The position numbers and the translations under genes are program-made. Positions 11,230 through 39,534 of a stretch of 39,534 nt of DNA are shown one piece after another. Source of the stretch: Gammaproteobacteria bacterium (GTDB lineage: Bacteria; Pseudomonadota; Gammaproteobacteria; Thiohalomonadales; Thiohalomonadaceae); contig QKED01000060.1 of assembly GCA_003252455.1 (NCBI GenBank), positions 1 through 39,534 on the forward strand. Direction: 5' to 3'. Below the pieces are notes generated by a model. That model saw nothing but the letters and a program-made list of their open reading frames with translations. It was not told the origin of the DNA and searched no databases. The number at the start of each line of letters is the position of its first letter. Within the stretch, counting starts at the first letter, position 1.

Positions 11230-11880
11230 ATGACACAGAGTGCATCCAAACACCCGAACCAACCGCTCGACGAGGGGCAGCTGCTGCTCTCGCGGTTGGT
11301 GGATGACGACCTCGCCCCGGAGGAGCTGGAGCTGCTGCTCGATCGTCTCAACGACGACGAACCGTTGCGGGCTCAATGGGCCAGTCACCACCTCATCAGT
11401 GCCACCCTGCAGGGACACCACCAGGCCGGGCACACCTACATCGGTCTCGCCGCACGCATCCAGGCCGAGCTGCAGGAGGAACCCACCATCCTCGCACCTC
11501 AGCGTCGTCGGCCCAAGCCGCAGATGGTCAGACGCATGGTCGGTGTGGCCATCGCCGCCGGGGTGACCGCGGTGACCCTCATCGGCGTGAGCCAATACGG
11601 CGTGCTCGAAGGTACCCCCTCGGCCCAGGTACAGGCGGTGGCCAGCGCGCCGAGCCTGGCACGCCCACTGCCACAGCAGCGTGCCGTGGTGGTCTACTAC
11701 AGCAGTGAGCCGAAGAGTTCGACCCAGGCGGTCGCGGTGCAGCCGCTGCACGACTTCCCCGCCGCGGTGAACCGGGGCGCACTCGATGCCTATCTGGTCA
11801 ACCACAGTGAGTTCGCCCCGAGCACCGGGGTGCAGGGGGTGCTCCCCTATGCGCGCATCGTCAGTCAGGAGGTGCGCTGA
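11230..11880 (+). CDS. rseA: Anti-sigma-E factor (RseA/MucA)
   Basis: 216 residues. The N-terminal cytoplasmic domain (about 10-75) has the RseA pattern: an acidic 'LSRLVDDDLAPEELELLLDRL' segment (20-40) followed by 'QWASHHLISATLQG'. One transmembrane helix lies at about 103-122, and a periplasmic domain follows that should bind RseB and be cut by DegS-type proteases. The start is ATG 11230; a GTG at 11224 or 11173 is possible, since the ribosome site is weak. It directly follows rpoE and abuts rseB, the conserved order. Confidence 0.9.
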   Translation: MTQSASKHPNQPLDEGQLLLSRLVDDDLAPEELELLLDRLNDDEPLRAQWASHHLISATLQGHHQAGHTYIGLAARIQAELQEEPTILAPQRRRPKPQMVRRMVGVAIAAGVTAVTLIGVSQYGVLEGTPSAQVQAVASAPSLARPLPQQRAVVVYYSSEPKSSTQAVAVQPLHDFPAAVNRGALDAYLVNHSEFAPSTGVQGVLPYARIVSQEVR

Positions 11881-12894
11881 GTGATGCCTTTCGCCACTGC
11901 CCGACGTGAGCTCGCGCGCCCCCTGGGGTTGGTGATCGCCCTCTGTGCCGGTCTCGCCCAGGCCGCCCCGCAGACGCCTCGGGAGTGGCTCGACGCCATG
12001 GCATTGGCCGCGCACCAGAGCAACTACGCCGGGACCTTCACCTACCTCAACAACGGTAGCTTGCAGAGCATGCGCCTAGTGCACGGTTACGACGCCGCGC
12101 GCGGCGAGCGTGACCGCCTCATCTCCCTGAGCGGTAGTCTGCGCGAGGTACTACGTGACGGCGACCAGGTTACCTGCATCCTCCCCGATACTCAGTCGGT
12201 GAAGGTGGAACACCCGGGGCCGAGCCGTGCCATCCCCATCCTCATCCCCTCTCAACTCGAACAGATCGCCGAGCACTACCAGTTCGCCTTCGCTGGTGAG
12301 GAGCGGGTCGCCGGGCGCACCACGCGCCTGTTGGTCATCTCCCCGCGTGACCCCCACCGCTATACCCACCGCTTCTGGATCGACAGTGAGAGCCACCTGT
12401 TGCTGCGCTCGGAGTTGATCAACGAGGAGGGCGAGGCGGTGGAGCAGCTCATCTTCAGCGATATCACCCTCTACGATGCCCCCCCGGAGGCGGCACTGGC
12501 GCGCCATACTGAGGGGGTCGACTATGTCTGGACCCATCAGGGCGATGTGTCCCCCCCCGCCCCGGCGGCTACGACCACCACAGGCCAGCCGCAAGATTGG
12601 AGCATCGGTTTCCTCCCCGCCGGTTTTGTCCAGGATACCCGCCGCCACCACCTCTCCACCCGCGAGAAGGGGGGGATGGAGCAGTTGGTCTACTCCGACG
12701 GGCTCGCCTCCATCTCGATCTTTATCGAGGACTACCGTGAGGGTGACGCCCCCTTCATCGGCTTCTCTTCGCTCGGGGCGATCAACGCCTTCGGCAAGTT
12801 GATCGACCACCACCACCTCACCGTGCTCGGTGAGGTGCCGAAGAGCACGCTGATCCGCGTGGCCGATTCGGTTCACCATCAACACCAGGAGTAG
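11881..12894 (+). CDS. rseB: Sigma-E regulatory periplasmic protein (RseB/MucB)
   Basis: 337 residues with a signal peptide (hydrophobic LGLVIALCAGLAQAA, cleavage near residue 28). The N-terminal MucB/RseB domain begins 'REWLDAMALAAHQSNYAGTFTYL', which is the family hallmark, and a smaller C-terminal domain starts at about residue 235. It binds the periplasmic part of RseA and shields it from proteolysis until lipoprotein/LPS signals release it. GTG 11881 is eight bases after AGGAGGT (11867-11873); ATG 11884 is an alternative. No cysteine or catalytic motif is expected. Confidence 0.92.
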   Translation: MMPFATARRELARPLGLVIALCAGLAQAAPQTPREWLDAMALAAHQSNYAGTFTYLNNGSLQSMRLVHGYDAARGERDRLISLSGSLREVLRDGDQVTCILPDTQSVKVEHPGPSRAIPILIPSQLEQIAEHYQFAFAGEERVAGRTTRLLVISPRDPHRYTHRFWIDSESHLLLRSELINEEGEAVEQLIFSDITLYDAPPEAALARHTEGVDYVWTHQGDVSPPAPAATTTTGQPQDWSIGFLPAGFVQDTRRHHLSTREKGGMEQLVYSDGLASISIFIEDYREGDAPFIGFSSLGAINAFGKLIDHHHLTVLGEVPKSTLIRVADSVHHQHQE

Positions 12895-31119: not shown

Positions 31120-31196
31120 CGGGGTATAGCGCAGTCTGGTAGCGCGCCTGCTTTGGGAGCAGGATGTCGGGAGTTCGAATCTCTCTACCCCGACCA
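31120..31196 (+). tRNA. tRNA-Pro (anticodon TGG)
   Basis: 77 bases including an encoded CCA. Acceptor CGGGGTA pairs with TACCCCG; anticodon stem CCTGC/GCAGG with loop TTTGGGA gives anticodon TGG; the T arm has GTTCGAAT. First gene of a three-tRNA transcript. Confidence 0.97.
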
Positions 31197-31251
31197 AATT
31201 TTCGTAGGCAAGCTAAAATCTTTTTGCTAGCATACGCGGACTCTGAACAGA

Positions 31252-31328
31252 GCGCCTGTAGCTCATCCGGATAGAGCATCGGCCTTCTAAGCCGAGGGTA
31301 GCAGGTTCGAGTCCTGCCAGGCGCGCCA
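31252..31328 (+). tRNA. tRNA-Arg (anticodon TCT)
   Basis: 77 bases with encoded CCA. Acceptor GCGCCTG pairs with CAGGCGC; anticodon loop CTTCTAA gives TCT, reading AGA/AGG; T loop GTTCGAGT. Located between the Pro and His tRNAs. Confidence 0.97.
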
Positions 31329-31356
31329 ATAGCCGCCTGGCGGTAACAGTTTCTCT

Positions 31357-31433
31357 GGTGGATATAGCTCAGTTGGTAGAGTCCTGGTTTGTGGTACCAG
31401 TTGTCGTGGGTTCGAGTCCCATTATCCACCCCA
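31357..31433 (+). tRNA. tRNA-His (anticodon GTG)
   Basis: 77 bases, counting the extra 5' G (G-1) that pairs with the C discriminator as in all bacterial tRNA-His, and encoded CCA. Anticodon stem CTGGT/ACCAG with loop TTGTGGT gives GTG. Followed at once by a strong terminator. Confidence 0.97.
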
Positions 31434-31482: not shown

Positions 31483-32313
31483 CTACTGTTTACGCACCCG
31501 GCGCAGCACCACCTCGACCCCTAAGGCCAGGCTCTCGGCCTGGGCCGCCGCCTCGCGCCCGGTCGCCGAGGCCCGGTGCAGGTGCGGGGTCATCGCCAGC
31601 AGGTCGGCGAGCGCCGCCTGTGGGATGGGGGCGGTGGTAAAGCGGAGGGTCGCCTCGCGCTGTAGGGCGAAGCCCTGGGCCAGCCCGGCGTCGATAGGCG
31701 CAACCGGCTTACGACGCACCTCGGGATAGATGAGTTCGCGTAGTGCCAGCAGATGGTCGGGCCCGGCGTCCAGCAGCAGCAGCTCACCGTTGGGGCGCAG
31801 CAGGGTGTGAAACGCCGCCCAAACGGGAAAGCCGAAGAGGCTCAGACAGAGGTCGACCGATGTGGGCAGGATGGGCGGCTGACGATTACTCGCCACCAGC
31901 CAGTGCACCGCCGGGCTGCGTCGCGTCGCCGCCTGCACCGCCCATTTGGAGATGTCGAAGCCGACCACGCAGCTTCCCGCGGCCAGGTGGGGCAGCAACT
32001 GCTGTAGGTACCACCCCTCGCCACAACCGGCGTCGAGCAGGGTGATGGGCCGCCCGGCGGCGACCTCGATCACCTCTTCGATCAGCGCCGCGGCCAATGG
32101 CAGGTAGTGTCCGGCATCGAGGAAGCGGCCACGCGCCGCCACCATTGTCTTGCTGTCACCGGGCTCTTTCGAGCGCTTGTGCTGCACGGGGAGCAGATGA
32201 ACATGGCCCTGGCGGGCGATATCGAAGCTGTGGTTGTTGGCACAGGCGTAGCGTTGCTCCCGATGCACGAGCGCAGTGCCACACAGCGGACAGGCGAGGG
32301 GCGGGCAGCTCAT
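31483..32313 (-). CDS. rlmA: 23S rRNA (guanine-N1)-methyltransferase RlmA
   Basis: 276 residues. The N-terminal zinc site is Cys8, Cys11, Cys24, His28 (ACPLC ... CANNHSFDIARQG), followed by the family's 'VHLLPVQHKRSKEPGDSK' block (37-55). The SAM-binding motif LLDAGCGEGW is at 92-101. E. coli RlmA methylates G745 of 23S rRNA in helix 35. ATG overlaps the stop of the nucleoside transporter gene (ATGA), so it is the last gene of that minus-strand operon. Confidence 0.93.
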   Translation of the reverse strand: MSCPPLACPLCGTALVHREQRYACANNHSFDIARQGHVHLLPVQHKRSKEPGDSKTMVAARGRFLDAGHYLPLAAALIEEVIEVAAGRPITLLDAGCGEGWYLQQLLPHLAAGSCVVGFDISKWAVQAATRRSPAVHWLVASNRQPPILPTSVDLCLSLFGFPVWAAFHTLLRPNGELLLLDAGPDHLLALRELIYPEVRRKPVAPIDAGLAQGFALQREATLRFTTAPIPQAALADLLAMTPHLHRASATGREAAAQAESLALGVEVVLRRVRKQ

Positions 32314-33560
32314 ACGCCGCTCACCCCGACGACGCCGACCACCGCGCCGGTCATGCAGGTGGCCAAGGTCCCTGCGACGATGGAACGAAGACCCAGGGCC
32401 GCCACCTCGGCACGCCGCTCAGGCACCAGGGTGGCGAGACCGCCGATGAGGATGCCGAGGCTACCGAGGTTGGCGAAACCGCACAGGGCGTAGGTCATGA
32501 TCAACTTGCTGCGCTCGGAGAGAGCGCCGCCTTCAAGCCCGGCCAGACGTAGATAGGCGAGCAGCTCGTTGAGCACCGTCTTGATCCCCATGAGCTGACC
32601 CGCCGTCTGTGCCTCGGCCCAGGGGATACCCATCAGCCACACCAGCGGCGCCATCAGCCAGCCGAGGATGCGCTCCAGCGAGAGCGGTGCACCGCCCACC
32701 TCGGGCAGCAGCCCCACCAGCTGATTGGCCAGACTCACCAGCGCCACCATCACCAGCAGCATGCCGATGACGTTGAGCAGCAGCTTGATGCCGTCGAGGG
32801 TCCCCTGGGTCACCGCGTCCATGCTGCTGGCGTAGCCGAGGTCGAGCTTGAGGTCGGCGTCGGTGTGCGGCCCCTCATGAGGGATCATCAGCCGCGCCAC
32901 CAGCAGCGCGGCGGGGGCGCTGATGAGCGAGGCGGCGAGGATGTGGCCCATGGCGTCCGGGATCACACCGCTCAAAAAGCTCGCGTAGAGCGCCATCACC
33001 GTGCCCGCCACCGTGGCCATGCCGCAGGTCATCACCGCGAACAGCTCGCCACGGCTCAGGGTGAGCAGATAGTGGCGCACCAGCAGCGGCGCCTCGGTCA
33101 TGCCGACAAACACATTGGCCGCTGCGCTCAACCCCAACGCTCCACCCACACCGAGACTACGCTGCAACAGCCAGGCAAAACCGCGCACCACCAGCGGCAG
33201 GATGCGCCAGTAGAAGAGTAGGGCAGAGAGTGCGCTGACGACGATGATCAGCGGCAGCGCGCGGAAGGCGAGGATGAAGTCACCGCCAGGGCGGTTGGCG
33301 TCGAACGGCAGGTCACCCCCGCCTACATAGCCGAAGACGAAGCTGGTGCCCGCGCGGGTCGCCTCCTCCAGCGCCAGGATCAACCCGTTGAGGGCGAGGA
33401 ACAGCTCGCGGAAGAGTGGCAGGTGCAGCAGCAGCGCGGCGAGCAGCAGTTGCACGCCAAGGCCGGTGGCGATGAGGCGCCAATCCGGCAGCGTGCGCCG
33501 TTCGGCCAGAAGCCAGGCGATGGCGGTGAGGGCCAGCAGGCCGAAGAGGGAGTGGAGCAT
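32310..33560 (-). CDS. NupC-like concentrative nucleoside transporter
   Basis: 416 residues with about ten hydrophobic helices. 'LSAAANVFVGMTEAPLLVRHYL' and 'CGMATVAGTVMALYASFL' are the first substrate/ion-binding block of the CNT family, and 'CGFANLGSLGILIGGLATLVPER' with 'RSIVAGTLATCMTGAVVGV' is the second half. CNT proteins import nucleosides with H+ or Na+. The gene follows a response regulator and a nucleobase-transporter-like histidine kinase on the same strand, which suggests it is the controlled uptake system. Substrate specificity (purine versus pyrimidine) is not readable. Confidence 0.92.
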   Translation of the reverse strand: MLHSLFGLLALTAIAWLLAERRTLPDWRLIATGLGVQLLLAALLLHLPLFRELFLALNGLILALEEATRAGTSFVFGYVGGGDLPFDANRPGGDFILAFRALPLIIVVSALSALLFYWRILPLVVRGFAWLLQRSLGVGGALGLSAAANVFVGMTEAPLLVRHYLLTLSRGELFAVMTCGMATVAGTVMALYASFLSGVIPDAMGHILAASLISAPAALLVARLMIPHEGPHTDADLKLDLGYASSMDAVTQGTLDGIKLLLNVIGMLLVMVALVSLANQLVGLLPEVGGAPLSLERILGWLMAPLVWLMGIPWAEAQTAGQLMGIKTVLNELLAYLRLAGLEGGALSERSKLIMTYALCGFANLGSLGILIGGLATLVPERRAEVAALGLRSIVAGTLATCMTGAVVGVVGVSGV

Positions 33561-33633
33561 GGGGCACCCTTGGGGGCTATGATGCAGGGATTGTCGCGCA
33601 GCTCGGCGTCACTGGCCACTGCCAGGGTCGAGG

Positions 33634-34539
33634 CTACACCGGCAGCCCCAGCAACGCCTGGATCGCGATGGAGGTGGCGGCGGAGCGGTTGTCGACCTGC
33701 AGCTTGGGGAAGGTCAGCTCCAGGTGCTTGTTTACGGTGCGTGGGCTGAGGCCGAGGATCTCGCCGATCTCCTTGTTGGTCTTGCCGTGGGCGACCCACA
33801 GCAGCACCTCGGCCTCGCGCTTGGTGATGGGCAGGGCCGCCTCCAGGGCCGTGGCGTCGGTGAGGATGTTCTGCCCGATGACACGTAACAGGTGCTCGTT
33901 GTTCTGCGCCTGCTTGAAGTAGCGGAAGCTCAGCGGCACCTCGCAGCCCTTGAACATCAGGTCGCCATGGGCCTCGTGTGTGGGCAGCCAGGCGCACAGG
34001 GCTACACCCAGGCGCGTGCGCAGACCCTCATCATCCAGACCGTGTTTAGTGAGCAGCTCTTCGGTATCGGGCGTGGCCCAGAGGATGTGCCCGAGGTCAT
34101 CCACGGCGAGGATGAACTGGCGCGCCACATCGAGGGCCACGCGGGCCTGATTGATCATGTTCGCACGTGCCACATGCGCGGTGATGCGCGCCAGCAGCTC
34201 TACGGGCTTGATCGGTTTGGTGATGTAGTCGTTGCCGCCCACCTCGAAGGCACGTACCACGTGCTCCGTTTCGCTCAGGCCGGTCATGAAGATGATCGGC
34301 GTCAACGGCAGGCGTTCACGCATGCTGCGTGTGCACTCGAAGCCGTCCATCACCGGCATCTGCGCATCCATCAGCACCACGTGGGGGGTGATCTGCTCGA
34401 CGATGGCCAGCGCCTGAGCGCCGTTGAGCGCCACCAGCACCATGTACCCGGCCTGGTTGAGGGCGGTGTTGAGCATGCCGAGGGAGTCGGGGGAGTCGTC
34501 GACCACCAGGATGATGGGCTTGTCGCTGTGCAGGGACAT
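33634..34539 (-). CDS. LuxR-type two-component response regulator
   Basis: 301 residues. Receiver domain at 1-122 with acidic Asp14/Asp15, phospho-acceptor Asp58 (VVLMDAQMPVMDG) and Lys108. A middle region (about 125-235) of PAS-like character has no clear motif. C-terminal LuxR/GerE helix-turn-helix at about 238-295 (ITKREAEVLLWVAHGKTNKEIGEILGLSPRTVNKHL, in pieces). ATG at 34537-34539 gives the normal start, although no good ribosome site precedes it. It lies 49 bases after the hybrid kinase gene and 73 bases before the nucleoside transporter, so it is the likely cognate output. Confidence 0.92.
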   Translation of the reverse strand: MSLHSDKPIILVVDDSPDSLGMLNTALNQAGYMVLVALNGAQALAIVEQITPHVVLMDAQMPVMDGFECTRSMRERLPLTPIIFMTGLSETEHVVRAFEVGGNDYITKPIKPVELLARITAHVARANMINQARVALDVARQFILAVDDLGHILWATPDTEELLTKHGLDDEGLRTRLGVALCAWLPTHEAHGDLMFKGCEVPLSFRYFKQAQNNEHLLRVIGQNILTDATALEAALPITKREAEVLLWVAHGKTNKEIGEILGLSPRTVNKHLELTFPKLQVDNRSAATSIAIQALLGLPV

Positions 34540-34588
34540 GGTGTGTGTCGTCGTGCCGTTGGGTCTGTGCAGCTTACCTGAAATGGCC

Positions 34589-37500
34589 TCAGAGGCCACG
34601 GATCGCCGCAATCACCCCCTGAAAGTCGAACAGCTCGGTGCGCTCACGCAGATGGCGCAGGAACCTGGAGTGTGGGTACGCCTGTTGCAGCTCGTCGAGC
34701 TTGCCCATTACCCCCTCCAGATAGCCGATGCGGGCCATGGCTACCAGTGCCTCCAGTGCCTCGGTGGGCGGGAGTTCGGTGGCCTCGTCCTCGTGTGTTT
34801 GCTGCGGCACCTCGGGCGCTGGTTCAGCGTATTGCCACTCCAAACCGAGCAGGGCGCCGATCCTATCGAGCAGGGTATCGAGGCGGATCGGTTTGATCAG
34901 ATAGGCGTCGTGCAGTCGGCTCCCCAGCTCCGCGCGGTGGTCCTCGATGGCGTTGCCGGAGAGCATGACGATGGGCGCCTCGAAGCCGCCCTGGCGCAGC
35001 TGGGACGCCAGCTCCCAGCCATCCATCAGCGGCATGTGTACGTCGAGTAGGGCGAGGTGGAAGGGCTGTTCCGCCACCCGTTCCAGGGCGAAGGGGCCGT
35101 TGTGCGCCTCCACCACCTCGAAGCCGAGGGGACGTAGGGCGTCGCTGACCAGGGCGCGGTGGGCCGGTTCATCGTCTACCACCAGCACACGCAGGCGGCG
35201 ACCGAGGTAGCCGGTGATGGCCGCAGGTTCCTCGGTGGGGGCCTCGCTGCGCTGTACCGACGGCAGCATCAGCGTAAGGGTGAAGCAGCTCCCCTCGCCG
35301 TAGCGACTCTGCAGTGAGAGGTCACCGCCGAGCAGGCTGGTGAGCAGGCGTGAGATGGTCAGACCGAGACCGGTACCGGTGACGAATTGGGTCTGCTCGT
35401 CGCGGATCCGCTTGAAGGGTGAGAAGATCGCCTCCTGCTCCTCCTCGCGGATGCCGACGCCGCTGTCTTGGATGACGAAGCGCGCCACTTGACTACGGTA
35501 GCTGCTGCGCAGCGATACCTGTCCCTCGCGGGTGAACTTGACGGCGTTGGAGAGTAGGTTCATGAGGATCTGCCGCAGGCGCTTCTCGTCGGTGACGACG
35601 AAGGTGGGTAGCTCATGCAGCCCGTCGTGGTGAAAGGCGAGCCCCTTGGCGCGCGCCTGGATGGCGAACATCTCCACCAACTGCTCCATCAGCTGTTTGA
35701 GGTTTACCTCGTCGCGATGCAGATCGAGGCGGCGTGCCTCGATGCGTGAGATGTCGAGCAGCCCCTCGATCACCCCCGCCAGGTGCTCGCCGCCGCGCTG
35801 GATCGCCACCGCTGCACGGTGGTTATTGCCGCTCAGACTGCGGTCACGCTCCAGCAGTTGGGCGTAGCCGAGGATGGTGTTGAGCGGCGTGCGCAGCTCG
35901 TGGCTCACCCCGGAGAGGTAGCGGCTCTTCGCCTGATTGGCGGTCACCGCCGCCTCCTTCGCCTCCTGCAACATGCGGTTGGTGCGCTCGTGGGCGGCCA
36001 TCTCCTGCTGCAACAGTGCGGTGCGCTGCTGCGCCTCGTCGAGCGCCTGATTGCGGCTCTGGCGCACCAGCAGGTATAGCCAGAGCAGCACGCCGGTGAC
36101 GATGAGCAGTAGGAAATAGGTGCTCACGAGGGCGTCGCCCACCGCCTCGGCCAACTCAGGGTCGCTCAGCTCGCTGGCCTGATGCACCAGGGCGAAGAGC
36201 GCGGCCATGAGCACGGCATTGAGGGCGAAGAGCAGCAGAAAGCGCCCGACGTTGGAGTCGATGCGCCGCACCCAGCGGGCGGGTAGGTGGCGGTCGAGGG
36301 TGGCGTGGATCTGCGCGTGCAGGTGCGCCTCGGGGCGGCACTGATCGCCACAGCTGCTCTCCAGCGCACAGCAGAGCGAGCAGACCTGACCGCCGTAGGC
36401 GGGGCAGGGGAGCAGGTCCTCCGGCTCGAAGGGGTTGGCGCACACCTGGCAGTCGCACTCGTCATGGTCATGCGCCGGGGCCACCTCACGGGCTAGGTAG
36501 TAGCGTCCTTGGGTGGCCCAGGCGATGAGCGGCGCGGTAATAAAGGGCAGGAAGAGCGCGATGAAGGGCGCCAGCGCCTTGGCCGTCGCGCCGTAGAGGC
36601 CCAGCTGCGCGGTGATGCCGAGGGTGGAGGCGATGAGCATGGAGCCTACCCCCACCGGGTTGATGTCGTAGAGCAGGCCGCGTTTGAACTCGATCTCTCT
36701 TGGGCGTAGCCCCAGCGGCAGGTTGATGGCGAGGTCTGCTACCAGTGCGCCGATCCACGCCAGCACCAGCGAGGAGTAGGTGATGAGGATGGTCTCGAAG
36801 GCGTGGTAGAGCCCCAGCTCCATCAGCAGCAGGGCGATGGCGACGTTGAAGAAGAGCCAGACGATGCGCCCTGGATGGCTGTGGGTGATGCGCGAGAAGA
36901 AGTTCGACCACGCCAGCGACCCGGCGTAGGCGTTGGTCACGTTGATCTTCAACTGCGAAATGACCACGAAGAGCGCCACCAGCACCAGCGCGGCAGAGGG
37001 GTTGGGGATAATGGTGCTGAAGGCGACCAGATACATATGCGCCGGGTCGTCCGCCAGCGCTGCGTCCACTCCGTATTGCAGCGCCAGTACGGCGAGGAAG
37101 GAGCCCGCCAGCAGCTTGACCACACCGAACAGCGTCCACCCCGGCCCGGCCAGGGTGAGTGCCGCCCACCACTTGAAGCGCCCGATCTCCTCACGCGGCA
37201 GAAAGCGCAGAAAGTCCACCTGCTCACCGTTCTGCGCCATCAGCGGGAAGATCACCGCCGCCGCCGCGCCGAACAGCGCCAGGTCGAACCCCACCCCCGG
37301 CTCACCGGCGCGCCCGGTAAAGTGCAGCCACTCGGTCACCGTCTCCTGATGGGCGAAGACGATGTAGACCAGCGGCGCGATCTGTAGCAGTAGCCAGATG
37401 GGCTGGGTCCAGAGCTGAAAGCGGCTGATACGCGTGATGCCGTGGGTCACCAGCGGGATCACCACCAGCGCGCTGATCACATAGGCCCACGCGAGCGGGA

Positions 37501-37939
37501 TGCCGAGCAGCAGCTCCAGCGCCATCGACATAATCGCCGCCTCCAGGGCGAAGAAGATGAAGGTGAAGGAGGCGTAGATGAGCGAGGAGAGAGTCGAGCC
37601 GATATAACCGAACCCTGCCCCACGGGTGAGCAGGTCGATATCCAGCCCCGAGCGCGCGGCGTGATAGCTGATGGGCAGGCCGCAGAGGAAGATGAGCGCA
37701 CAGACCACCAAGATCGCCCAGAGCGAGTTGGTGAAGCCGTAGGCGAGGGTGATCGCCCCGCCGATCGCCTCCAGCGCGAGGAAGGAGACGATGCCGAGCG
37801 CCGTGTTGGCCACCCGCGCATCCGACCACTTGCGCGCCCGCTGCGCCGTGTAGCGTAGGGCGAAGTCCTCCAACGTCTCGTTGGCCACCCACTGGTTGTA
37901 GGTGCGGCGGGAGAGGATGACGGGGGAGCGTGGGGGCAT
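34589..37939 (-). CDS. NCS1 transporter-like receptor fused to hybrid histidine kinase
   Basis: 1116 residues. Residues 1-480 are a complete NCS1-type (cytosine/purine/allantoin permease) domain with about 12 helices; 'YNQWVANETLEDFALRYT' (14-31) and 'VANTALGIVSFLALEAIG' (43-60) are its signature. A Cys-rich module follows at 495-534 (CDCQVC, PCPAYGGQVCSLCC, CGDQC: nine cysteines), then two further helices (about 565-585 and 604-625) and a coiled coil (630-675). The kinase has His680 (VSHELRTPLN), N-box Asn798, DSGVG and GTGLGL; a receiver domain at 915-1030 has Asp966 and Lys1016, and a helical tail ends the protein. The domain fusion parallels transporter-kinase receptors such as CbrA (SSS family). 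The ligand is probably a nucleobase or related compound. It is the first gene of a minus-strand operon with its regulator and a nucleoside transporter. Confidence 0.93.
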   Translation of the reverse strand: MPPRSPVILSRRTYNQWVANETLEDFALRYTAQRARKWSDARVANTALGIVSFLALEAIGGAITLAYGFTNSLWAILVVCALIFLCGLPISYHAARSGLDIDLLTRGAGFGYIGSTLSSLIYASFTFIFFALEAAIMSMALELLLGIPLAWAYVISALVVIPLVTHGITRISRFQLWTQPIWLLLQIAPLVYIVFAHQETVTEWLHFTGRAGEPGVGFDLALFGAAAAVIFPLMAQNGEQVDFLRFLPREEIGRFKWWAALTLAGPGWTLFGVVKLLAGSFLAVLALQYGVDAALADDPAHMYLVAFSTIIPNPSAALVLVALFVVISQLKINVTNAYAGSLAWSNFFSRITHSHPGRIVWLFFNVAIALLLMELGLYHAFETILITYSSLVLAWIGALVADLAINLPLGLRPREIEFKRGLLYDINPVGVGSMLIASTLGITAQLGLYGATAKALAPFIALFLPFITAPLIAWATQGRYYLAREVAPAHDHDECDCQVCANPFEPEDLLPCPAYGGQVCSLCCALESSCGDQCRPEAHLHAQIHATLDRHLPARWVRRIDSNVGRFLLLFALNAVLMAALFALVHQASELSDPELAEAVGDALVSTYFLLLIVTGVLLWLYLLVRQSRNQALDEAQQRTALLQQEMAAHERTNRMLQEAKEAAVTANQAKSRYLSGVSHELRTPLNTILGYAQLLERDRSLSGNNHRAAVAIQRGGEHLAGVIEGLLDISRIEARRLDLHRDEVNLKQLMEQLVEMFAIQARAKGLAFHHDGLHELPTFVVTDEKRLRQILMNLLSNAVKFTREGQVSLRSSYRSQVARFVIQDSGVGIREEEQEAIFSPFKRIRDEQTQFVTGTGLGLTISRLLTSLLGGDLSLQSRYGEGSCFTLTLMLPSVQRSEAPTEEPAAITGYLGRRLRVLVVDDEPAHRALVSDALRPLGFEVVEAHNGPFALERVAEQPFHLALLDVHMPLMDGWELASQLRQGGFEAPIVMLSGNAIEDHRAELGSRLHDAYLIKPIRLDTLLDRIGALLGLEWQYAEPAPEVPQQTHEDEATELPPTEALEALVAMARIGYLEGVMGKLDELQQAYPHSRFLRHLRERTELFDFQGVIAAIRGL

Positions 37940-38420
37940 GTGAAGCGGCGGTGAGGTGTGAATGGAGGATCTTGGACGGAGGAGGGGAGAGGTGCAAGCG
38001 GTTGGAGTGACCTAGTAACGAAGGCTGAGCTGGTCGTCAGATCTCGGCGGTGGGTATATACATGTGGTGGTCAAATATGCCAACTGGCGTTGTGGCAGGG
38101 CGTGTTTTGCGGCTTAACACATCTGGCTAGCGCGCTGATGACTTGACGGGGGAGGGTATCTGCGCCCTAATCATGAGGTGGAACGGAGCGCTTTAGTACC
38201 AGGGTTGCGAGATATAGCGCACATAAAATCAGCATGTTACATGCTTGGAACAGACTTTTGCCTGGATGTGTGGATGATGGCGCATGGGGATTCGTGGGTG
38301 AAAGCACCTCACTGGATGGTTGTGAGTGCTACCGAGATAAGCTGCATCCGTGCTAAAAGGGATAAACCGCTTCCGTTTAACCCGGAATACGCGGCAGCGT
38401 ACTAAACCACTTAGCGTCTT
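37940..38420. other. Intergenic region at the boundary of the low-GC segment
   Basis: 481 bases. The left part should hold the promoter of the hybrid-kinase operon on the minus strand, but I see no convincing hexamer pair. Base composition falls noticeably from about 38,000 rightward. A 75-codon frame opening with GTG at 38178 has no recognisable features. No attI site or integrase fragment is evident. Confidence 0.5.
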
Positions 38421-38954
38421 ATGAATTGGTCGCGGAGAAAAATATTAACAATAAGCACAATCGTAACGGCATTGGTAGGTGTCGCTCTGTCATTTGTGCC
38501 TTTTGCGTTATCTTTGCAGCCCAGTGAAAGAGCTGACGCAGCTTTGCCCCGAATTGATGTGTCCAATATGTCTCCTGGTACATACAAGTTAGTTACGCCG
38601 GAAGATGCCTTTGAAACATTTAATGGGTTTAAACAGTCTGTATATTTCCTCAGAACTAAGGATGGCAACTTGCGCGCTTGGGCAGTGTATGCAAGAAACG
38701 GCGAAGTAGGCATGCCTGACTACCATTGGTGGAGAACCTACTTTTCATGTAAAGAGTTTGGGCCGGATCTGAAAGATGGCGTAATTGATGAGAAGTCATT
38801 AATTCAGTGTCACGACAAAGATCTATATCAAGGGCAGGTGGAATACTGGAGATGGCAGCTTAATGGAAAGGCAGTTTCACAATATGTCGATGATATGCAG
38901 CCTGCTAATGGTGTGATTGAGGGTGAATACTTTGTTCTTGGTAAAATACGCTAA
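38421..38954 (+). CDS. Rieske-like membrane-anchored protein lacking the Fe-S ligands
   Basis: 177 residues. The N-terminus 'SRRKILTISTIVTALVG' with a single membrane helix (about 10-31), followed by PSERADAALPRIDVSNMSPG (34-53), closely matches the N-terminal anchor and hinge of bc1-complex Rieske proteins. Further on, 'SVYFLRTKDG', 'FSCKEF' (Cys110), 'IQCHDKD' (Cys130, His131) and 'WQLNGKAV' fall where Rieske box 1, box 2 and 'DLAGRV' should be. The CTHLGC and CPCHGS ligand motifs are not intact, so it should not bind a normal [2Fe-2S] cluster. The stop codon lies inside an integron attC site, as in gene cassettes. Codon use and base composition differ from the core genes. No good ribosome site is seen. 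Confidence 0.7.
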   Translation: MNWSRRKILTISTIVTALVGVALSFVPFALSLQPSERADAALPRIDVSNMSPGTYKLVTPEDAFETFNGFKQSVYFLRTKDGNLRAWAVYARNGEVGMPDYHWWRTYFSCKEFGPDLKDGVIDEKSLIQCHDKDLYQGQVEYWRWQLNGKAVSQYVDDMQPANGVIEGEYFVLGKIR

Positions 38955-39020
38955 CACAACGCTCAAAATGGACGCCAATTCCGCTGCGCTCCATTGGCGC
39001 CCTTTAGCTCGGCGTTAGGT
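38951..39020 (+). mobile_element. Integron attC recombination site
   Basis: About 70 bases of imperfect dyad symmetry: CTAAC at 38951-38955 pairs with GTTAG at 39014-39018; ACGCCAAT (38972-38979) matches ATTGGCG (38993-38999) further in. Inner boxes show the single unpaired bases expected of attC (GCTCAAA against TTTAGC, GGACGCC against GGCGCCC). The right core site GTTAGGT fits GTTRRRY, with crossover expected between 39014 and 39015. It follows the stop codon of the Rieske-like gene directly, the standard cassette layout. Confidence 0.85.
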
Positions 39021-39060
39021 TTTCACTGTCTATATTGGCGATCAATTTGAAAGGCATCTA

Positions 39061-39534
39061 ATGAAATTATTAAAATTCCGAGTAACAAACTTTCGATCTG
39101 TAACCGATAGTGGCTGGCTTGATGTATCAGATGTAACCGCTCTTATCGGTGAAAATGAAGCGGGTAAAACAAATCTCTTACTGCCACTTTGGAAGTTTAA
39201 TCCAACAGCTGCTGGCGAAATTAGTCTTCTTGATGATATGCCGCGCAGTCGATATGCGGAAATGCGTAGCGAACCGATGTCGCATCGATTCATTTACTGT
39301 GAATTCGAATTGGACGAATCCGATATTCGAATTGCAAACAGCTATGGAATCGAAGCCAAAGAGAGAACAACCCTCATTGCTCGGCGCAATTTTGCCGGGC
39401 AATATGGTTTCGAGTTTCCTGATTTTCCAGAAGTTAATATTACAGATACTTTTAATCCTGCACTAGAAAAGCCAGCCGAAAACGAAGGAGAAGAGCCAAA
39501 AAAGGGTCCGAGCCTTTGGGATAGATTCAAGAGC
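39061..39534 (+). CDS. AAA ATPase, RecF/OLD-like, N-terminal part (3' end outside window)
   Basis: The frame is open from ATG 39061 to the right edge (158 codons). 'MKLLKFRVTNFRSVTDSGWL' followed by 'VTALIGENEAGKTNLL' with Walker A GENEAGKT at 30-37 is the start of an SMC/RecF-like ATPase of the AAA_15/OLD group. Proteins of this kind include OLD nucleases and ATPases of anti-phage systems such as Gabija, but the deciding C-terminal (TOPRIM or other) domain is outside the window. It begins 40 bases after the attC core site, with GAAAGG as ribosome site, so it is probably the next integron cassette gene. Confidence 0.85.
   Translation, partial: MKLLKFRVTNFRSVTDSGWLDVSDVTALIGENEAGKTNLLLPLWKFNPTAAGEISLLDDMPRSRYAEMRSEPMSHRFIYCEFELDESDIRIANSYGIEAKERTTLIARRNFAGQYGFEFPDFPEVNITDTFNPALEKPAENEGEEPKKGPSLWDRFKS

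Follow-up and report, generated by a model that had tools for sequence, protein, structure and literature searches.

The closest described counterparts of the system treated here are the SLC5/STAC kinases (CrbS/CrbR, CbrA/CbrB, and RpuS/RpuR), in which a LeuT-type transporter domain is fused to a histidine kinase and whose targets are uptake or utilisation genes (PMC5715377, PMC9100948, PMC13022988, PMC7096432). CrbS is a hybrid kinase whose LuxR-type partner, CrbR, acts at an imperfect inverted repeat with matches such as TACGACTAAAGTCTAAA (PMC5715377), and both transport and kinase activity have been reported for SLC5/STAC kinases (PMC7096432). A hybrid kinase and a LuxR-type regulator are likewise paired in the stretch of DNA analysed here, called the window (39,534 nucleotides; contig QKED01000060.1 from a gammaproteobacterium of the family Thiohalomonadaceae), where the kinase (1116 amino acids; 34589–37939) and the response regulator (301 amino acids; 33634–34539) are encoded next to each other on the minus strand. 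This pair differs from the SLC5/STAC systems in that the transporter part is of the NCS1 and not of the SLC5 type, in that a module of eight cysteines and two extra helices precede the kinase core, and in its operator sequence and neighbours, which in relatives are urea and amide genes. The kinase is probably a "transceptor" that senses urea or small amides through its NCS1-type domain and controls their uptake via the LuxR-type partner, and in the genome of the window it has probably been orphaned. Urea is an important source of nitrogen in the environment, and to our knowledge few bacterial receptors dedicated to it are known. The kinase is a concrete candidate for such a receptor, with a proposed pocket (E133, Q236, N333, and N336), a proposed operator and a proposed output (urt and fmd genes), which makes urea sensing directly testable.

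Architecture of the kinase–regulator pair

The N-terminal part of the kinase (approximately residues 20–479; 36503–37882, minus strand), the candidate urea or small-amide receptor, is a divergent NCS1 permease fold, as judged from a profile comparison, from sequence matches to PF02133 proteins and from the modelled fold. Pfam gave no match in residues 1–645 of the kinase, and the NCS1 model PF02133 matched none of 72 members of the kinase family at E ≤ 0.1. The NCS1 permease-like domain proposed earlier from the sequence alone is thus upheld in fold and profile similarity, while remaining undetected by PF02133. By BLAST, stand-alone proteins were found to be 22–34% identical to the sensor domain, and five of the nine that were scanned pass the PF02133 cut-off. 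When the profile of the 72-member family was compared by hhalign with a set of NCS1 proteins, which itself matches CodB and Mhp1, 402 columns were aligned (probability 91.9, E = 7.1e-7). In addition, the AlphaFold 2 (AF2) model (predicted local distance difference test 88.3, predicted template modelling score 0.86) was superposed on CodB with Z 32.8 and a root-mean-square deviation (rmsd) of 3.0 over 397 aligned residues, and on Mhp1 with Z 28.2; the first row outside NCS1 had Z 21.9, and NCS1 chains clearly outranked SLC5-type chains. The sensor therefore has its fold in common with CodB (7qoa) and Mhp1 (2jln, 4d1a), from which it differs in being fused to a kinase and in having no PF02133 match. 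Pfam produced no N-terminal match bearing on STAC, no STAC model having been run by name.

Conservation within this domain bears on whether it still recognises a substrate. In all 149 rows of the family alignment, which includes near-duplicates, nine polar or charged residues are unchanged: E133, Q236, E239, Q240, D242, K275, K331, N333, and N336. In the alignment to Mhp1, N333 and N336 correspond to Asn314 and Asn318, which we take to line the Mhp1 substrate site, and Glu133 to Gln121; on the other hand, Ser312 and Thr313 of Mhp1, which presumably form its Na2 site, are replaced by Lys331 and Ile332 (by alignment only). Because the Na2 serine is lost to the invariant Lys331, coupling to Na+ in the manner of Mhp1 is unlikely. 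This loss would suit a kinase that does not itself bind the substrate but responds to transport flux, to nitrogen status or to a partner protein (e.g., UrtA), its NCS1 fold being a structural relic. We regard that explanation as quite unlikely, since a relic would not require nine membrane-domain residues of this kind to be invariant in all 149 rows. Moreover, Arg or Lys occupies the Lys331 column in several stand-alone NCS1 proteins also, and Lys331 alone is therefore no mark of a non-transporter.

Between the permease domain and the kinase core lies the cysteine module (residues 495–534; 36338–36457, minus strand), with the spacing C497 x2 C500 x11 C512 x7 C520 x2 C523 C524 x5 C530 x3 C534. 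None of these eight cysteines varies among the 149 rows, and the pattern would suit two zinc sites. In the sequence-only reading the module was put forward as a possible metal or redox checkpoint. The sequence-only reading had described nine cysteines here; all nine are present, but a module of nine conserved cysteines had to be rejected, as C495 is conserved in only 3% of rows. The module alone gave no Foldseek match at E ≤ 0.001, and its best structural resemblance, to a FYVE-type zinc module (Z 4.2, rmsd 2.0, 41 residues), was too weak to assign. The two extra helices (approximately residues 563–620; 36080–36253, minus strand; helices 563–588 and 594–644 in the model) join the module to the kinase.

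The kinase core (HisKA and HATPase, residues 670–892; 35264–35932, minus strand) and the receiver domain (residues 918–1027; 34859–35188, minus strand) are those of a hybrid sensor histidine kinase, with HisKA (670–735), HATPase (783–892) and receiver (918–1027) all far above the Pfam cut-offs. All 149 aligned relatives have the phospho-acceptor His680 (codon 35900–35902), and 146 have Asp966 of the receiver, the remaining three rows being gaps. In the response regulator, a receiver is followed by a LuxR-type helix-turn-helix, as established by Pfam and an alignment of regulators; its phospho-Asp is retained in 109 of 109 aligned regulators, and the helix SPRTVNKHLE is well conserved, the regulator of the window included. 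The intact kinase and receiver and, more broadly, a receptor kinase with an NCS1-type sensor and a LuxR-type partner, comparable to the CbrA-type transporter kinases, had been anticipated from the sequence alone and are borne out.

Two variants of the pair have been observed. In loci L159 and L160, a divergent kinase of 885–894 amino acids, shorter by approximately the C-terminal receiver, adjoins a regulator-like gene, fmdA and fmdB, and appears to be a sister form of the family. In L009/L165, a kinase-bearing locus from the same family as the window, the regulator after the kinase is split into two open reading frames (ORFs) of 168 and 165 amino acids, which reflects a genuine frameshift or else a mistake in the assembly.

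Gene neighbourhood in relatives

The neighbourhood of the kinase was compared in two sets of loci, the best 80 of 100 relatives from a scan of species genomes, and 56 loci with full-length matches in a phylum sample of 398 genomes. Neighbours were identified by clustering, followed by application of curated models to one representative per cluster. The genes divergent to the kinase were found to encode UrtA, UrtB, UrtC, UrtD and formamidase (NCBIfam, above cut-off) and UreD (Pfam). A Urt, FmdA or UreD label is present in 49 of the 56 loci of the phylum sample and in 66 of the 80, i.e., in at least 115 of 136 overall, a count that includes short contigs and in which L154, L077, and L080, having no labelled kinase ORF, were entered as lacking neighbours, though L077 has urt clusters; 133 loci are assessable. 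Seven loci of the phylum sample and 14 of the 80 are unlabelled; among the 14, three (L018, L044, and L066) have more than 4 kb on both sides and still no label, and two of the seven have urease alpha nearby. The regulator lies directly downstream of the kinase in 47/55 and 66/68 of the loci with more than 700 bases downstream (the misses in the second set are L052 and L081).

At the genome level, the kinase occurs in 52 of the 398 sampled genomes, that of the window included, not counting G236, which has only a fragment of 53 residues, and genomes whose NCS1 matches are all weak. UrtA is matched at E ≤ 1e-151 in 49 of these 52 and lies over the cut-off in 134 of the 398; that the 49 are over it was in part deduced from their E-values. 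At E ≤ 1e-128 the figure is 50/52. For example, in Azospirillum oryzae the genes for a zinc-ribbon protein, fmdA and urtEDCBA are divergent to the kinase and regulator, which are followed by an aliphatic amidase gene. Annotated kinase loci have been found also in Shinella and on a Klebsiella IncFIB/IncFII plasmid. In PLSDB, the sensor domain was matched in 523 plasmid records, of which 342 are from Klebsiella. The kinase is thus common, Klebsiella plasmids included, yet generically labelled: in the PLSDB rows listed, the gene appears as ATP-binding protein, response regulator, hybrid sensor histidine kinase, ArcB or hypothetical protein, or is missing from the gene table.

Some individual loci deserve mention. 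On the Klebsiella plasmid L263, the kinase is accompanied by formamidase–urtEDCBA genes, a regulator match at 11356–12243 that is missing from the PLSDB gene table, and, in the interval separating urtA from the kinase, the palindrome TACGTCATTTAACGTA. In some gammaproteobacterial loci this interval holds genes on the urt strand, namely c10 (e.g., L033:4829–5971), which encodes a 380-amino-acid protein with no Pfam match, and c20 (e.g., L063:6357–7394), which encodes a porin; the products of c10 and c20 are possibly an outer-membrane urea pore.

These neighbourhoods bear directly on the function proposed in the sequence-only reading, namely the sensing of nucleobases by the kinase and, via nupC, its control over the uptake of nucleosides. 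In the window, a gene for a NupC/CNT-family nucleoside transporter (32310–33560, minus strand; 416 amino acids) lies 73 bases downstream of the regulator gene on the same strand, with no terminator-like match in the gap, and the kinase, regulator, nupC and rlmA genes may form one operon; this arrangement and the NCS1 fold of the sensor agree with such a function. That reading had itself named rarity of the NupC adjacency among relatives as a result that would speak against it, and NupC adjoins the kinase in none of the 133 assessable loci; the same is true of RlmA. The constant neighbours of the kinase are urea and amide genes, the window nupC has no operator upstream, and the same polar residues are invariant in urease-linked and fmdA-linked kinases. 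Nucleobase sensing and control of nucleoside uptake are therefore highly improbable, and the neighbours, together with the operator they share, point instead to urea or short-chain amides. NupC is in fact matched in only 2 of 20 genomes of the family to which the window belongs, the second of which has no kinase match; at the nupC locus of genome G409, rlmA was not matched within 4.2 kb.

A putative shared operator upstream of urea and amide genes

Reading of the intergenic regions between kinase and urtA revealed a palindrome of the form TACGTCAWWTGACGTA. In the counts that follow, the duplicates L165, L011, and L014 and genes with fewer than 250 bases upstream were dropped, and some unlinked urtA copies are included. 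Within two mismatches, TACGTCAWWTGACGTA was found in kinase-bearing loci before 46 of 104 urtA and 7 of 66 fmdA genes and before none of 82 urtB, 113 regulator and 20 ureD genes, and the reversed pattern was found nowhere. A relaxed core, T[AG]CGYN6RCGYA, precedes 65/104 urtA, 9/66 fmdA and 12/12 c10 genes, as compared with 2/104, 1/66, and 0/12 for its reversed control; it also precedes 4 of 113 regulator genes. The relatives of the pair therefore adjoin urt, fmd or ure genes with a shared operator, as would be expected if the pair controls urt and fmd.

The operator goes with the kinase. It was absent from all 40 urtA upstream regions examined from genomes without the kinase, which were chosen from the list of UrtA matches. 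Within 20 kinase genomes that have a second, unlinked urtA, the relaxed core precedes the linked copy in 18 and the unlinked copy in 2 (for L154, whose kinase ORF is unlabelled, a fixed stretch was substituted). Fisher values are to be taken as descriptive, related sequences not being independent of one another. The LuxR-type regulator would be the protein that binds this palindrome, as suggested by the association of operator and pair.

Urea or short-chain amides as ligand

The neighbour genes fit urea and short-chain amides, and the strongest pointer to urea comes from a homologue of the sensor that stands alone. On an Acinetobacter plasmid, a protein annotated as "allantoin permease" (L262:5663–7270; 43% identity over 524 amino acids) is encoded directly upstream of a urease cluster comprising ureE, UreF, ureG, UreJ, UreD, ureA, the beta subunit and ureC; it looks like a urea permease. 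This homologue keeps F129, E133, Q236, E239, Q240, D242, K275, K331, N333, and N336, and four cysteines of the module (C497, C500, C520, and C523). Another stand-alone homologue with no kinase, from Acidiphilium (L087:12301–14016, with a matching ORF in L088), keeps all eight. Such homologues allow receptor and transporter to be compared.

Alternatively, the ligand could be formamide or another short-chain amide, the urea-linked members being exceptional. This is suggested by the presence of fmdA in 34/56 and 32/80 loci, as compared with 6 and 16 for UreD, by the aliphatic amidase adjoining the pair in Azospirillum, and by Ectopseudomonas guguanensis G3, in which the two-component genes are reported beside a urt copy other than that of the urease (PMC13296017). 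Against it stand the position of the Acinetobacter homologue before a urease cluster and the existence of members that adjoin urease genes (L148 and L163, the two unlabelled loci mentioned above); in three further loci (L150, L152, and L157) a ure-operon-like pattern of ORFs lies upstream, UreC not having been scanned there. In addition, in a quick tree of 72 rows the window kinase falls in a clade of 15 rows (SH-aLRT 99), of whose loci five are urease-labelled, five urt-labelled and five, the window among them, unlabelled, with no fmdA label at all. We consider this alternative unlikely, formamide being possible above all in the many fmdA-linked members.

Proposed mechanism and evidence against it

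In the mechanism that we favour, urea or a similar small amide (e.g., formamide) would bind the central site of the NCS1 domain, and the resulting conformational change would be relayed to the kinase core via the cytoplasmic eight-cysteine module and the two extra helices. Phosphorylation of His680 would follow, and the phosphate would be transferred to the adjacent receiver–LuxR regulator, which would bind TACGTCAWWTGACGTA (in relaxed form, TACGYN6RCGTA) and turn on the divergent operon of the urea/amide ATP-binding cassette transporter, urtABCDE; this operon has a porin-like first gene in some loci and is often accompanied by fmdA or urease genes. In the genome of the window, the pair would have stayed intact while urt, fmdA and recognisable operators were lost, AT-rich DNA now lying in the place expected for urt. 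The window kinase would thus be an orphaned urea sensor, for which nupC is a possible target but an unsupported one.

Several observations weigh against this mechanism or limit it. As regards the phosphate route, no HPt domain or conserved His was found after the receiver of the kinase. As regards the operator, its relaxed form is missing at 39/104 urtA and 57/66 fmdA upstream regions, in some of the urtA cases because urtA is not the leading gene of its operon. Both unlinked urtA copies at which it is found belong to genomes with two kinase places (G379 and G225). A degenerate version of the palindrome, TACGTYRNNYRACGYA, is present at one place or another in 91 of the 398 genomes, which comprise 27 of the 52 kinase genomes and 64 of the 346 that lack the kinase; therefore its position before urt, and not its presence, carries the argument. 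As regards the ligand, the Acinetobacter homologue differs near the pocket at S52, F53, and E57, and 38 of the 72 rows of the tree are fmdA-linked, so that formamide and urea are equally likely in a large part of the family. Finally, the genome of the window has no UrtA above the cut-off (best E 5.5e-8), no FmdA and no operator beyond chance (10 matches to the relaxed core, as compared with 9 for the reversed control), and the target deduced from the relatives therefore cannot be checked there.

The pair in the genome of the window

The genome of the window encodes one such kinase. Its urease genes, together with those for UreE and UreF, are on contig C82, where a gene for a hydantoinase B/oxoprolinase (L167:6701–8242) lies a few kb from them. 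Just upstream of the kinase gene, where many relatives have the divergent urt operon and its operator, the content of guanine plus cytosine (GC) drops from approximately 0.65 to 0.42–0.51. This AT-rich stretch (38050–39534, with no strand assigned) holds an ORF of 177 amino acids and the start of a gene for an AAA_15 ATPase that runs off the end of the contig. In a relative of the same family (G400, the genome of L165), urt adjoins the kinase. Because the genome of the window is a draft (118 contigs, 99.7% complete), true loss of urt and an assembly gap are not fully separable. The pair is intact, and it is orphaned in that the neighbours it has in relatives have been lost; the window kinase is probably still used, because its invariant residues have been kept.

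A remnant of the operator was sought upstream of the window kinase and rejected, the best stretch having five mismatches. The sole match to the relaxed core in the window (37842) is inside the kinase gene and is approximately what chance would give; of the 10 matches in the whole genome, 8 are inside a predicted ORF.

Relation to described kinases

The evidence points to a variant of the transporter-domain histidine kinases that is real and widespread and has apparently not been described before; it would extend these kinases from SLC5 to NCS1 transporters. Its members are unnamed in the annotations examined, and no description of a kinase with an NCS1 domain or of its regulator was found in the open-access literature, most subscription papers being outside that search. 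Two probable examples have been listed in genome reports. In Dechloromonas aromatica, a kinase of 1131 amino acids and a receiver protein of 308 amino acids are next to UrtA (PMC2907700, Table 4), and in E. guguanensis G3 a kinase and a LuxR-type regulator are found beside urtABCDE, with an fmdA locus tag adjoining the operon (PMC13296017). Both are likened to the present pair by their listing and not by comparison of sequences, and in the parts of these reports that are available the genes are merely listed, with no sensor domain, operator or function given. A broader proposal is that the family is a widespread and unrecognised class of urea receptors in Pseudomonadota, which arose when a kinase captured a urea permease of the NCS1 type along with a two-zinc cytoplasmic module and which has its own operator and regulon, the sensor of the window having outlived its target operon and perhaps been rewired to nupC; the chances of this fuller account we consider to be about even.

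Neighbouring genes and gene calls in the window

The four genes predicted earlier on the minus strand were all confirmed as ORFs, including the overlap of 4 bases between rlmA and nupC. For the regulator, an alternative TTG start at 34611 is probably wrong and the ATG at 34539 is preferred, because the resulting 301 amino acids equal the length in three near relatives (L012–L014); with this start no overlap with the kinase gene is needed. The best NCBIfam matches of the two downstream products, NupC and an rRNA methyltransferase, are both under cut-off (for the NupC-like protein, 334.7 bits as compared with 442 for TIGR00804), and Pfam confirms a CNT transporter, above all three CNT cut-offs, and RlmA. 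Both nupC and the rlmA-type 23S rRNA methyltransferase gene (31483–32313, minus strand) are neighbours of the pair in the genome of the window only, the former being outside the conserved system. Three clustered tRNA genes (Pro, Arg, and His; 31120–31433) lie immediately downstream of rlmA and are encoded on the other strand.

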